Shown here piece by piece: positions 2,312-5,123 of a DNA stretch of 5,123 nt (positions are counted from its first letter, which is position 1; each line of letters starts with the position of its first letter). The stretch covers positions 1 to 5,123 of the forward strand of contig CANSQW010000122.1 of assembly GCA_947649215.1 (NCBI GenBank), given 5' to 3'. Source of the DNA: an uncultured bacterium (lineage in GTDB: Bacteria; Actinomycetota; Coriobacteriia; Coriobacteriales; Eggerthellaceae). Made by a program: the position numbers and the translations under genes. The notes below the pieces were generated by a model. That model did no database searches and had not been told where the DNA came from. It saw nothing but the letters and a program-made list of their open reading frames with translations.

Positions 2312-2406
2312 GTGGAGGGCGGAGGCGCGCGACGCGCGGGCGCGGGGCATCGGGCGAGACGGCCTGCGGCACGCATGGCCGATGCGACTCCGCGCAAGCC
2401 CCCCCC

Positions 2407-2434
2407 TTCCGCGATCGGGTCAACGGGCTATGAT
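2407..2434 (+). promoter_or_regulatory. Promoter and putative operator of the TetR gene
   Basis: TTCCGC (2407-2412), a 16-nt spacer, then TATGAT (2429-2434), facing the TetR gene. The predicted transcription start is near 2441, giving a leader of about 52 nt. The spacer GATCGGGTCAACGGGC is nearly the same as the spacers of two promoter-like sites in front of the ABC operon at 4966-4993 and 5085-5112 (23 of 30 bases shared with each when the two bases upstream are included). Conservation inside the spacer suggests a bound regulator, most simply the TetR protein itself, blocking RNA polymerase. Confidence 0.65.
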
Positions 2435-2446
2435 GGAGCCGAGCGC

Positions 2447-2460
2447 TGACCTGCCGGTCA
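2447..2460. promoter_or_regulatory. Short dyad just downstream of the predicted TetR start site
   Basis: TGACC-TGCC-GGTCA: two perfect 5-nt inverted arms around a 4-nt centre, about 6-20 nt after the predicted transcription start. Its position would suit an autoregulatory operator or a small leader hairpin. No copy is seen in front of the ABC operon, so a shared role is not supported. Confidence 0.3.
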
Positions 2461-2481
2461 ACGCCGCCCTCCCCCGACCCC

Positions 2482-2487
2482 GAGGAG
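2482..2487 (+). promoter_or_regulatory. Ribosome binding site of the TetR gene
   Basis: GAGGAG followed by five C and the ATG at 2493. It picks this start over the in-frame ATGs at 2382 and near 2430; 2382 lies upstream of the predicted promoter and the other overlaps its -10 box. Confidence 0.8.
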
Positions 2488-2492
2488 CCCCC

Positions 2493-3155
2493 ATGAACCG
2501 AAGCGAACATCCCGGCACGCCCGCGCCCGCAACCTCGACCGCCCCGCGTCGCGGCGACTTCGACGCGCTGCCGCCCGAGCGGCAGGAGGCCATCATGCGC
2601 GCGTCGCTCGAGGGCTTCGGGCGCCACGACTATAAGGGCGCACGCACCGCCGACATCGCGCGACGGGCCGGCATGTCCAAGGGGCTGCTGTTCTTCTACT
2701 TTCGCGACAAGCGGTCGCTCTACCTTCACACCCTGGACTACCTGACCGACCGCATCATCGAGCTGGTCGTGGACGAGGACTTCTACGCCATCGACGACTT
2801 CTTCGACCTGATGCTCTACGCCGGCGAGCAGAAGGTGGCCAGCCTGAGCCGCTGGCCGTGGGCGCTCGAGTTCGCGGTGCGGGCCTTCTACGCCGACCAC
2901 CGCGACATTCGCGATATCACGGCCCAGTGGACGAATCGCCAGGTCGACCTCATGTACGACCGGTTCTTCCGAAACGTGGACTTCGGCCGGTTCCGCGACG
3001 ACGTGGATCCGCGCGAGGTGCTCGACATGCTCATCATGCTGGGCGACGGCTACCTGCATCAGCGCCTCTCCAGCCGCGAGCCCATCGACCTGGGCGCGCT
3101 CATGGACGCGTACCGCCGCTGGTGCGAGATCCTGCGCGGGTGGGCATACCGCTAG
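2493..3155 (+). CDS. TetR/AcrR-family transcriptional regulator
   Basis: One-component DNA-binding repressor of 220 aa, a normal length for TetR proteins. After a loose, Pro/Ala-rich N-terminus (residues 1-20) comes the HTH domain at about 27-75: RQEAIMRASLEGF as helix 1, then TADIARRAGMSKGLLFFYF with the recognition helix around MSKGLLFFYF, and the closing RDKRSLYLHTL. The rest (about 80-220) is the variable ligand-binding and dimer domain, with acidic and aromatic segments (DEDFYAIDDFFDLM; EFAVRAFYADHRDIRD), so the ligand cannot be predicted. It diverges from the U32 gene and converges on the ABC exporter operon. Its promoter spacer shares a motif with two sites upstream of that operon, so its likely role is repressing itself and the exporter. 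The start at 2493 is supported by GAGGAG 5 nt upstream; the stop is TAG. Confidence 0.92.
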   Translation: MNRSEHPGTPAPATSTAPRRGDFDALPPERQEAIMRASLEGFGRHDYKGARTADIARRAGMSKGLLFFYFRDKRSLYLHTLDYLTDRIIELVVDEDFYAIDDFFDLMLYAGEQKVASLSRWPWALEFAVRAFYADHRDIRDITAQWTNRQVDLMYDRFFRNVDFGRFRDDVDPREVLDMLIMLGDGYLHQRLSSREPIDLGALMDAYRRWCEILRGWAYR

Positions 3156-3179
3156 ACCTCGGCCTTTCGCCGGCAATCC

Positions 3180-3327
3180 GCAAATTCGAACGGTTCTGCA
3201 CCCTGCCGCGCGGCAAAGGCCCTCCAAGATGCCAGCGCACACAAGGGCGGTCAGGGTTTTTGCGGCCACAAGCCCCTCCACGGCAGCAAAAAGAACGCCA
3301 CGGGGGTACAGAACCGTCCGAATTTGC
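3180..3327. repeat. 148-bp structured inverted-repeat element between convergent genes
   Basis: Arms at 3180-3203 and 3304-3327 are inverted copies matching at 22 of 24 positions; they begin GCAAATTCG. A palindromic GCCGGC flanks each side (3169-3174 and 3331-3336), which could extend the stem past a small internal loop. Inside are the perfect 12-nt palindrome TGCCGCGCGGCA (3204-3215), a weaker stem GCCCT/AGGGC (3219-3223 with 3244-3248), and TTTTTGC/GCAAAAA (3257-3263 with 3286-3292), the last extended by GCC/GGC (3265-3267 with 3282-3284). The element fills most of the 215-nt gap between the TetR and permease stop codons. It is less GC-skewed in its arms than the flanking genes. Candidate identities are a small non-autonomous mobile repeat (MITE-like), a structured RNA, or an unusual bidirectional terminator. 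No clear target-site duplication is visible, and no transposase is encoded. Confidence 0.7.
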
Positions 3328-3370
3328 ATGGCCGGCTCGATTTTTCGAGGCACAGCGCTCCGCACAGGCG

Positions 3371-4168
3371 CTACAGGCTGAAGTCGCGGCGGGCGAAGAC
3401 GGCGACGGCCAAGGCGTCGAGCGCCGCCGCGAGCGCGGCGAGCAGGGCGGCGCCAGCCGCGGCCTGCGCGTCCCCCGCCGCCAGGCCATAGGGATCGAAC
3501 AGCCTGAAGGGCGACAGGTCGGCCGCCCAGGCGAGCCCCTCCCCCACCGTGCCGACAAGCCCCATAAGAAAGAACAGCACGCAGGCGCCAGCACCCACCC
3601 CCAGGCCGAGGCCGGGGCGCTGGAAGGCGCAAGCCGACGCGAGGCAGACCGCCGACGCGAACAGGCCGAGGGCAAGCAGCCCCGCGTTGACGCGGGCCAG
3701 GCCGACATGGTCGAGCTCGCCGGGGAACAGCGCCTCGCAGCTGACGGCCTCGCCCGCCCAGCACAGACCCACCAGGAGGGCGACGGCGGCCGCCTCCGCC
3801 GCGACGAGCGTGAGGGCGAGCGCCGTCCGCGAACGCGGCGCAGCCAGCAGCCACGCGAGCGAGCCGTCCCTCGCAGGGCCCGCCATCAGGCGCTGCGCCA
3901 GGTAGGCGGCCAGAACGACCAGCACGATGGTCAGCAGAAAGCCATAGAGGTAGTTGACGAGGAAGTCGAGCAGCGTAGCGGAGGCGTTGGCCATGTTGAA
4001 GGCCGCGAAGAGCTCGGGCATGGCCTCCTGCATGAGCGCCAGGCTCTCGCTGACGGCGGGGTCGTAGAGGTAGGCGACGGAGGCGACGTACATGACGGCG
4101 ACGGCCGCGAGGGCCGCAAGCACCGGAGCGGCGCTGCGCAGGCTGCGGGCGAAGAGGACGGGGATCAT
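3371..4168 (-). CDS. ABC-2 type transporter permease
   Basis: Integral membrane subunit of 265 aa that should pair with the ATPase encoded just upstream. About six hydrophobic segments are visible: roughly 12-35, 66-93, 114-137, 155-181, 187-206 and 236-258. The segment between TM1 and TM2 carries EAMPELFAAFNMA, and the cytoplasmic stretch after TM2 carries RDGSLAWLLAAPRSRTAL. Both resemble the ABC-2 family in which the loop reads as 'DGT-E-LL--P-SR'. Its ATG overlaps the ATPase stop codon as ATGA (4165-4168), implying translational coupling and a fixed stoichiometry. It ends in TAG, converging on the TetR gene. With one permease gene, a homodimer of permeases with two ATPases is the simplest assembly. 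Substrate unknown: family members export antibiotics, antimicrobial peptides or lipids, and nothing here singles one out. Confidence 0.88.
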   Translation of the reverse strand: MIPVLFARSLRSAAPVLAALAAVAVMYVASVAYLYDPAVSESLALMQEAMPELFAAFNMANASATLLDFLVNYLYGFLLTIVLVVLAAYLAQRLMAGPARDGSLAWLLAAPRSRTALALTLVAAEAAAVALLVGLCWAGEAVSCEALFPGELDHVGLARVNAGLLALGLFASAVCLASACAFQRPGLGLGVGAGACVLFFLMGLVGTVGEGLAWAADLSPFRLFDPYGLAAGDAQAAAGAALLAALAAALDALAVAVFARRDFSL

Positions 4169-4920
4169 CGGAGGCCTCCCTTCGTCGCCGAGGCAGGCTC
4201 GGCGGGCGCCTCCCAGTGGCGGTCGAGGGCGTCGGCGCCGTAGAGGCGCTCGAGCGTGGCGTCCAGCGTGAGGTCGGCGGCGGAGGCCTCCGATGACAGA
4301 CGGCCGCGGCGGATGAACACCGCGCGGTCGCAGATGCCCTCCACCTCGCCGAGGACGTGGGATGACAGCAGCACCGTGGCGCCGCGCTCCCGCTCGGCCC
4401 GCACCAGCTCGACGAAACGGCGCTGCATGAGCAGGTCGAGACCGCTCGTGGGCTCGTCGAGCAACAGGACGTCGGGGGCGCCCATGAAGGCGGCCACGAT
4501 ACCGAGCTTCTGCCGATTGCCCTTGGAGAGCGCGCGGATGCGGGCGCACGGGTCGAGCTCGAAGAAGGCCGTGAGCTCGTCGCGGCGGCGCCGGTCGGCC
4601 GTGCCGCGCAGGGCCGCCATGAAATCGAGAAAGGCCGCACCGGTCAGATCGGCGGGGCACGCCAGCTCGCCGGGCAAGTAGCCCACGCGCCCCTGGATGG
4701 CGGCACGGCGGGCGAAGCAGTCCAAGCCGCCGATGGACACGCGGCCGGCATCCGGTCGGATGAAGCCCATGAGCAGCCGCATCGTGACGGACTTGCCGGC
4801 GCCGTTTGCCCCGAGGAAGCCGACGACCTCGCCGCGGCCCACCGCAAGCGACAGGTCGAACACGCCTCGGCCGCCGCCATAGTCCTTGGTGACGCCGCGC
4901 AGCTCGATGACCGGATCCAT
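4165..4920 (-). CDS. ABC transporter ATP-binding protein (ABC-2 exporter type)
   Basis: Cytoplasmic ATPase of 251 aa that powers the adjacent permease. Motifs in order: Walker A GANGAGKS at 37-44, YLPGE at 81-85 in the Q-loop region, signature LSKGNRQKLG at 131-140, Walker B VLLLDEPTSGLD at 151-162 with Glu156, and the H-loop His188 in SSHVL. The usual Gln of the Q-loop and the canonical LSGGQ are changed, in a way common in the BcrA/drug-export branch. About 40 residues after the core end in a charged, Ala-rich tail. The start at 4920 is chosen because GGAGG lies 5 nt upstream; in-frame ATGs at 4962 and 4977 would sit in or upstream of the predicted transcription start. First gene of a two-gene operon, overlapping the permease by 4 nt. 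Expression is probably controlled by the TetR-linked motif upstream. Confidence 0.93.
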   Translation of the reverse strand: MDPVIELRGVTKDYGGGRGVFDLSLAVGRGEVVGFLGANGAGKSVTMRLLMGFIRPDAGRVSIGGLDCFARRAAIQGRVGYLPGELACPADLTGAAFLDFMAALRGTADRRRRDELTAFFELDPCARIRALSKGNRQKLGIVAAFMGAPDVLLLDEPTSGLDLLMQRRFVELVRAERERGATVLLSSHVLGEVEGICDRAVFIRRGRLSSEASAADLTLDATLERLYGADALDRHWEAPAEPASATKGGLR

Positions 4921-4925
4921 CGCAT

Positions 4926-4930
4926 CCTCC
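4926..4930 (-). promoter_or_regulatory. Ribosome binding site of the ABC ATPase gene
   Basis: GGAGG on the minus strand, 5 nt (ATGCG) before the ATG at 4920. An overlapping ATG at 4925 lies in another frame and is too close to the site to be used. Confidence 0.8.
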
Positions 4931-4965
4931 CTCCCGTGGCGCCCCGTTAGCGCCCTCGCCATGAG

Positions 4966-4993
4966 ACGATACGCCATTGACCCGATTGTGGAA
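4966..4993 (-). promoter_or_regulatory. Proximal promoter and putative operator of the ABC operon
   Basis: On the minus strand TTCCAC (4993-4988), a 16-nt spacer AATCGGGTCAATGGCG, then TATCGT (4971-4966). The start of transcription is predicted near 4959, a leader of about 39 nt holding the ribosome binding site. The block shares 26 of 30 bases with the distal copy at 5085-5112 and 23 of 30 with the TetR promoter at 2407-2434. The spacer contains CAATCGG and CAATGGC, a 9-nt-spaced direct repeat, rather than a clean palindrome. Confidence 0.6.
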
Positions 4994-5084
4994 GGGGCCT
5001 TCTCGCCGCCCTGGGAACAAACGCGCTGCCTTCGCGGCGTAGCGTGCCCAAAACTGGCGACCTGACGACAAACCTGCGGAGCAG

Positions 5085-5112
5085 ACGATACCCCATTGGC
5101 CCGATTGCGGAA
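5085..5112 (-). promoter_or_regulatory. Distal promoter-like copy / second putative operator of the ABC operon
   Basis: On the minus strand TTCCGC (5112-5107), a 16-nt spacer AATCGGGCCAATGGGG, then TATCGT (5090-5085). Same orientation as the proximal copy and 119 bp upstream of it. It could be a second start site giving a leader of about 160 nt, an auxiliary repressor site, or a duplication relic. Confidence 0.5.
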
Positions 5113-5123
5113 GAGGTCGTTTC

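Follow-up and report, generated by a model that had tools for sequence, protein, structure and literature searches.

The window (the whole 5,123-nucleotide (nt) stretch analysed here) is an entire contig, C122, of a 1.74-Mb assembly with completeness rated at 56.55%, and its source bacterium is related to Adlercreutzia. It carries a gene for a TetR-family regulator (tetR; 2493–3155, plus strand; 220 amino acids, start codon ATG 2493 uncertain) and, converging on it from the minus strand, the genes of a putative exporter: an ABC transporter ATPase (4165–4920; 251 amino acids, ATG 4920) and a predicted ABC-2 type membrane subunit, or permease (3371–4168; 265 amino acids, six hydrophobic stretches). 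The regulator was identified from its open reading frame (ORF), a TetR_N helix-turn-helix match (44 bits; Pfam cut-off 24) and a structure model (predicted local distance difference test score, pLDDT, 90.3) with TetR folds among its matches, and the ATPase from its ORF and Pfam/NCBIfam matches (ABC_tran, 79.6 bits; Pfam cut-off 25). The permease, called from its ORF and a domain scan, scores 15.9 bits against the Pfam ABC-2 model, under the cut-off of 27.2; one of seven permease orthologues scanned is over it (a Negativibacillus relative, L304; 38.5 bits). Convergence of tetR and exporter had been noted in an earlier reading of this DNA (the original prediction) and is confirmed by the ORFs. 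A short motif, the box, lies in front of both transcription units and is the likely place where the regulator would shut both genes off.

Three copies of a 28-nt motif had been predicted at these promoters. All three are present at the coordinates and on the strands given, with 0 mismatches to the common pattern and none in 200 dinucleotide shuffles, and each faces the gene it would drive: 2407–2434 (plus strand) towards tetR, the two minus-strand sites towards the ATPase gene. The 28-nt pattern stands; its extent was revised, as the box starts one base further 5′ (CTTCC), giving a 29-nt consensus, CTTCC-N8-GTCAAYG-N3-TAnnnT, from the upstreams of orthologous modules. In this consensus CTTCC and TAnnnT would be the −35 and −10, with the GTCAAYG part as a spacer element. 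A scan of the window for consensus sigma-70 promoters found none, and the promoter reading therefore rests on comparison.

At the predicted tetR promoter, the box CTTCCGCGATCGGGTCAACGGGCTATGAT (2406–2434, plus strand) includes a predicted −35 (TTCCGC, 2407–2412) and −10 (TATGAT, 2429–2434), separated by a spacer containing GGTCAACG (2418–2425, plus strand), equal to one arm of a nearby palindrome and a candidate embedded TetR half-site. The proximal box at the predicted exporter promoter, CTTCCACAATCGGGTCAATGGCGTATCGT (4966–4994, minus strand), was found by both pattern and profile and carries the corresponding putative half-site GGTCAATG (4975–4982, minus strand). The outermost box, found by pattern (5085–5113, minus strand), has GCCAA replacing GTCAA and looks like a relic of promoter duplication: a 41-nt direct repeat (4964–5004 and 5083–5123; copies 119 nt apart, 83% identical) duplicates the exporter promoter. 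The same repeat is present in a related genome (G002, L071), where the −10 of the distal counterpart has CAT in place of TAT; in a second relative (G001), the 260 nt upstream of the ATPase gene show no counterpart of the distal box.

The half-sites had been described as direct repeats (CAATCGG..CAATGGC, 9-nt period). Such a repeat is visible in the proximal exporter site; relatives read, for example, AAAACGGGTCAACGG or AAAATAGTCAACGG at this stretch, and direct-repeat recognition was rejected because the repeat is not kept. A conventional TetR palindrome, to which the original prediction had preferred direct repeats, had been overlooked: CTGACCTGCCGGTCAA (2446–2461) matches 11 of the 12 half-site positions of TTGACC-N4-GGTCAA and is proposed, from sequence comparison, as the main TetR operator. 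It would lie near the start point, itself put 6–8 nt after the −10. Downstream of the proximal exporter box no palindrome is found (6/12 half-site positions).

In the order, TetR was detected in 56 of 395 genomes (E ≤ 1e-30) and the permease in 56 (E ≤ 1e-20), with both in 55. The layout of 57 tetR loci is convergent in 15 and an operon-like row in 40; the remaining two (L079, 4083–4727; L207, 4060–4701) hold a tetR copy without a detected ABC pair, and the box is still present at both. A profile built on 16 seed sites was applied to these 57 loci (56 with upstream sequence, L261 being truncated) and to 15 separate ATPase upstreams; only the tetR side was scored at operon-layout loci. Scores exceeded the best of 2252 background stretches at 53/56 tetR upstreams and 15/15 separate exporter upstreams, and with seed loci left out at 43/46 and 10/10, respectively, some of these being close relatives of seed loci. 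Convergent loci have the box in both transcription units, save the tetR side of L215, as expected if control of both needs it. Among 52 distinct boxes, information is 2.0 bits per base in GTCAA, 1.8–2.0 in CTTC and 1.7–2.0 in TA and the last T, while the flanks average 0.25 bits upstream (maximum 1.05, in a C run before the box) and 0.20 downstream.

The box is also rare elsewhere. Exact matches in the 138 genomes of the family number 26, in 18 genomes, with 23 at the module (reversed control, 1); widening the scan to the order (395 genomes, including the family) gives 48 places in 40 genomes, 35 of these places at the module (6 in the reversed control, by our own count), in line with the few extra matches anticipated. 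The 13 off-module places fall in open stretches of at least 119 and up to 1226 codons and seem to be chance matches within coding sequence, with the caveat that G+C-rich DNA often holds long frames by chance. When the spacing is N7 rather than N8, as a background estimate, 38 places in 60 genomes match with up to one mismatch, 0 of them at the module. A general promoter class, standing in front of many unrelated genes, was rejected because the box is seldom found away from the module. The link drawn in the original prediction, one promoter-embedded motif tying tetR to the exporter, is supported by this co-conservation with the TetR/ABC pair, within the class and outside it.

Outside Coriobacteriia, a named-genome scan covered 80 of 107 relatives from the TetR alignment, and the 36 with non-Coriobacteriia titles were tested (one from Bifidobacterium and 35 mainly from Clostridia); being built on recognition-helix words, the scan favours TetRs with the same helix. 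These TetRs, mainly of Bacillota, are 25–44% identical. The Coriobacteriia-trained profile found the box at 34 of the 36 loci: directly before tetR in 25, and 0.9–2.5 kb upstream on the same strand in nine more, six of these directly before an ATPase gene. The score limit of 7 was set after a first run, whose background threshold was contaminated by genuine boxes at other positions within those loci (1/36 above it); seven other matches (scores 7.4–14.3) occur in 513,802 bases, both strands counted. The −35 and −10 vary outside the class (TTGnnn or TTCTCA, often TATAAT) and GTCAAY is constant, as in Negativibacillus, Lachnoclostridium, Pygmaiobacter and Anaerostipes (−35 TTGnnn, GTCAAT kept). 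In Lachnospiraceae the box typically reads CTTCTCAAAAACGGTCAATGG-N2-TATAAT, with TTAACC-N5-GGTCAA after it, and from box GTCAA to palindrome GTCAA is 33 nt in 15 of the 18 loci showing both. A stricter pattern, drawn from the same loci, gave 25 matches with up to one mismatch in 18 of these genomes (reversed control, 14 by our own count); 16 of the 25 are exact, one each in 16 genomes, 15 of them at the module; the other (G397, Anaerostipes; L353, 1501–1521) precedes a helix-turn-helix gene with no recognisable module gene.

The palindrome is distributed differently from the box. At 10 or more of 12 positions it is present at 37/56 tetR upstreams (window included), beginning 36–44 nt after the box start, and in 3/1972 background stretches; separate exporter promoters of convergent loci have it in 0/15 cases, with background-like scores of 5–7/12. 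This conventional palindrome is exclusive to tetR promoters, so the common box would not be the whole operator. GGTCAA is common to the palindrome and the spacer element, and in the convergent layout this half-site is the only element found to be shared by both promoters. The 19 palindrome-free tetR upstreams comprise 14 of Collinsella/Olsenella type (L081–L083, L251–L260, L262) plus L080, L197, L207, L211 and L250, and 18 of them have the box (exception, L258). The palindrome-free Collinsella/Olsenella-type TetRs (L081–L083, L251–L262) mostly read G-V-S-K-S-Q (or G-I-S-K-S-L) versus S-K-G in the recognition helix.

In the window's own assembly, the core pattern ATCGGGYCAAYGGNNTAT is matched exactly at four places, the three window sites and one on contig C194; one further match has 2 mismatches and 16 have 3, with 11 in the reversed control at up to 3 mismatches. 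The C194 site lies just ahead of where another version of the ATPase gene begins (85% identity over 182 nt), and one full-length ATPase copy was found in this genome (E ≤ 1e-60). C194 (locus L009) also holds cysS, which directly precedes this ATPase gene in relatives, so a diverged allele or tandem copy is possible; the second cysS-ATPase junction, with its one box (1–186), may be either of these or a binning mix. The site was accordingly no longer counted as a further member of the regulon. An inverted repeat, gccgacttgacgac ... gtcgtcaagtcggc, lies in L009 between cysS and the ATPase gene (~202–360), and in G002 the distal box is preceded by similar letters.

On this sequence comparison, TetR probably represses both tetR and the convergent ABC-2 exporter through the common box, with the extra palindrome acting at its own promoter. 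The spacer sequence GGTCAAYG, having the letters of one palindrome arm, would be a single embedded TetR half-site; a TetR dimer bound there would span approximately −34 to −18 and keep RNA polymerase off both promoters. Autorepression would be made tighter by the palindrome, which begins near +1 to +9, and a ligand, perhaps the pump substrate, would release TetR from the DNA. Where relatives have tetR, ATPase and permease in one operon, a single promoter serves all three genes, while the exporter promoter of the convergent lineages keeps the box alone, and the box would therefore hold the exporter in the regulon. It is tentatively suggested, as a possibility short of an even chance, that a single non-palindromic half-site in a promoter spacer can be a stand-alone operator, and that in Actinomycetota and Bacillota this fusion of promoter and half-site has stayed together with the TetR/ABC module, holding the split-off convergent exporter in the regulon.

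Several observations weigh against repression through the box. It has no second half-site, the −35 occupying the place of the left arm, and CTTC and TA are conserved nearly as strongly as GTCAA, as in a pure promoter element. At the base before GTCAA, box and palindrome show no covariation (box/palindrome: G/G 11, A/G 21, A/A 1, G/A 2), and boxes of Eggerthella and Gordonibacter type have AGTCAA, yet their palindrome has GGTCAA. The profile misses L212, L215 (tetR side) and L258 within the class, and no box was found at L299 and L346 outside it. A distant module in G375 has a TetR 27% identical to that of the window and no CTTC-N9-GTCAA match; it was rejected as a permease-without-TetR locus that might separate the readings since it carries this TetR, and, lacking the box by pattern, it does not discriminate between them and counts against generality.

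In the main rival arrangement, considered rather unlikely, TetR binds the palindrome alone, with the box as a dedicated core-promoter element, for RNA polymerase or an unlinked activator, inherited by both promoters from that of an ancestral operon; the convergent exporters would then have left direct TetR control. The palindrome alone has the usual symmetry of a TetR operator and is absent from 15/15 separate exporter promoters, and both the conservation of CTTC and TA along with GTCAA and the missing covariation speak for it. However, the box is rare away from the module, and its retention for a single target would therefore fall to a general polymerase or a global activator; it also persists across phyla although the −35 and −10 change, and is retained by 18/19 palindrome-free tetR genes. 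That the boxes are alike simply through recent promoter duplication, with no function, is very improbable: the two minus-strand sites are indeed copies in the 41-nt repeat, 119 nt apart, but the columns of the box stay conserved from family to family and from phylum to phylum, between flanks averaging 0.20–0.25 bits. It is also improbable that TetR acts at the box as an activator or dual regulator aiding polymerase at a weak −35, leaving autorepression to the palindrome. A position between −35 and −10, where the box spacer element sits, is the usual one for blocking polymerase, and some Bacillota forms have a TATAAT −10 and would therefore need little help from activation. On the other side, the −35 (TTCC..) is far from TTGACA, the window has no sigma-70 consensus site, and some TetR-family members activate their targets (PMC6790063).

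The remaining genes of the window, for a homocysteine S-methyltransferase (4–909) and a U32 family protein (1017–2297), both on the minus strand, are ordinary neighbours. Between the convergent genes lies an inverted repeat (3180–3203 and 3304–3327; 24-nt arms, 92% complementary, 100 nt apart), the core of which was found, among the loci fetched, only in those overlapping the window.

Repression through the box, if correct, would provide an operator code for an uncharacterised TetR/ABC module of gut bacteria (Adlercreutzia, Gordonibacter, Eggerthella, Collinsella and Lachnospiraceae). The natural variants, box alone versus box plus palindrome, bear on whether a TetR dimer can regulate via one embedded half-site, and the identity of the inducer would hint at the substrate exported by the pump. 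No description of the box motif was found among the papers listed in literature searches, as judged by title or start of abstract.

Among known proteins, TM1030 of Thermotoga maritima (PDB 1zkg, 1z77, 2id6) is the best fold match (TM-scores 0.63–0.74) and the best profile match (E about 5e-20) to the window TetR, at an identity of 23–24%. RutR of Escherichia coli has TTGACC as its half-site letters. By profile, its helix-turn-helix region ranks with the better PDB matches, but the window TetR scores 33.9 on the NCBIfam RutR model (cut-off 368) and RutR belongs with pyrimidine genes and no ABC pump, unlike the module described here. The RutR site is a palindrome of ~16 bp (PMC10891134), the same size as that of the window. 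The closest known parallels are repressors of the TetR family that act locally on efflux pumps (types I to III of Ahn et al., described in PMC6790063): they share with the window a TetR_N domain, a regulator gene beside the pump and a palindrome over the promoter region. The window module differs from these in that regulator and pump converge under two promoters, with a second, non-palindromic element that is present in both and kept across two phyla.

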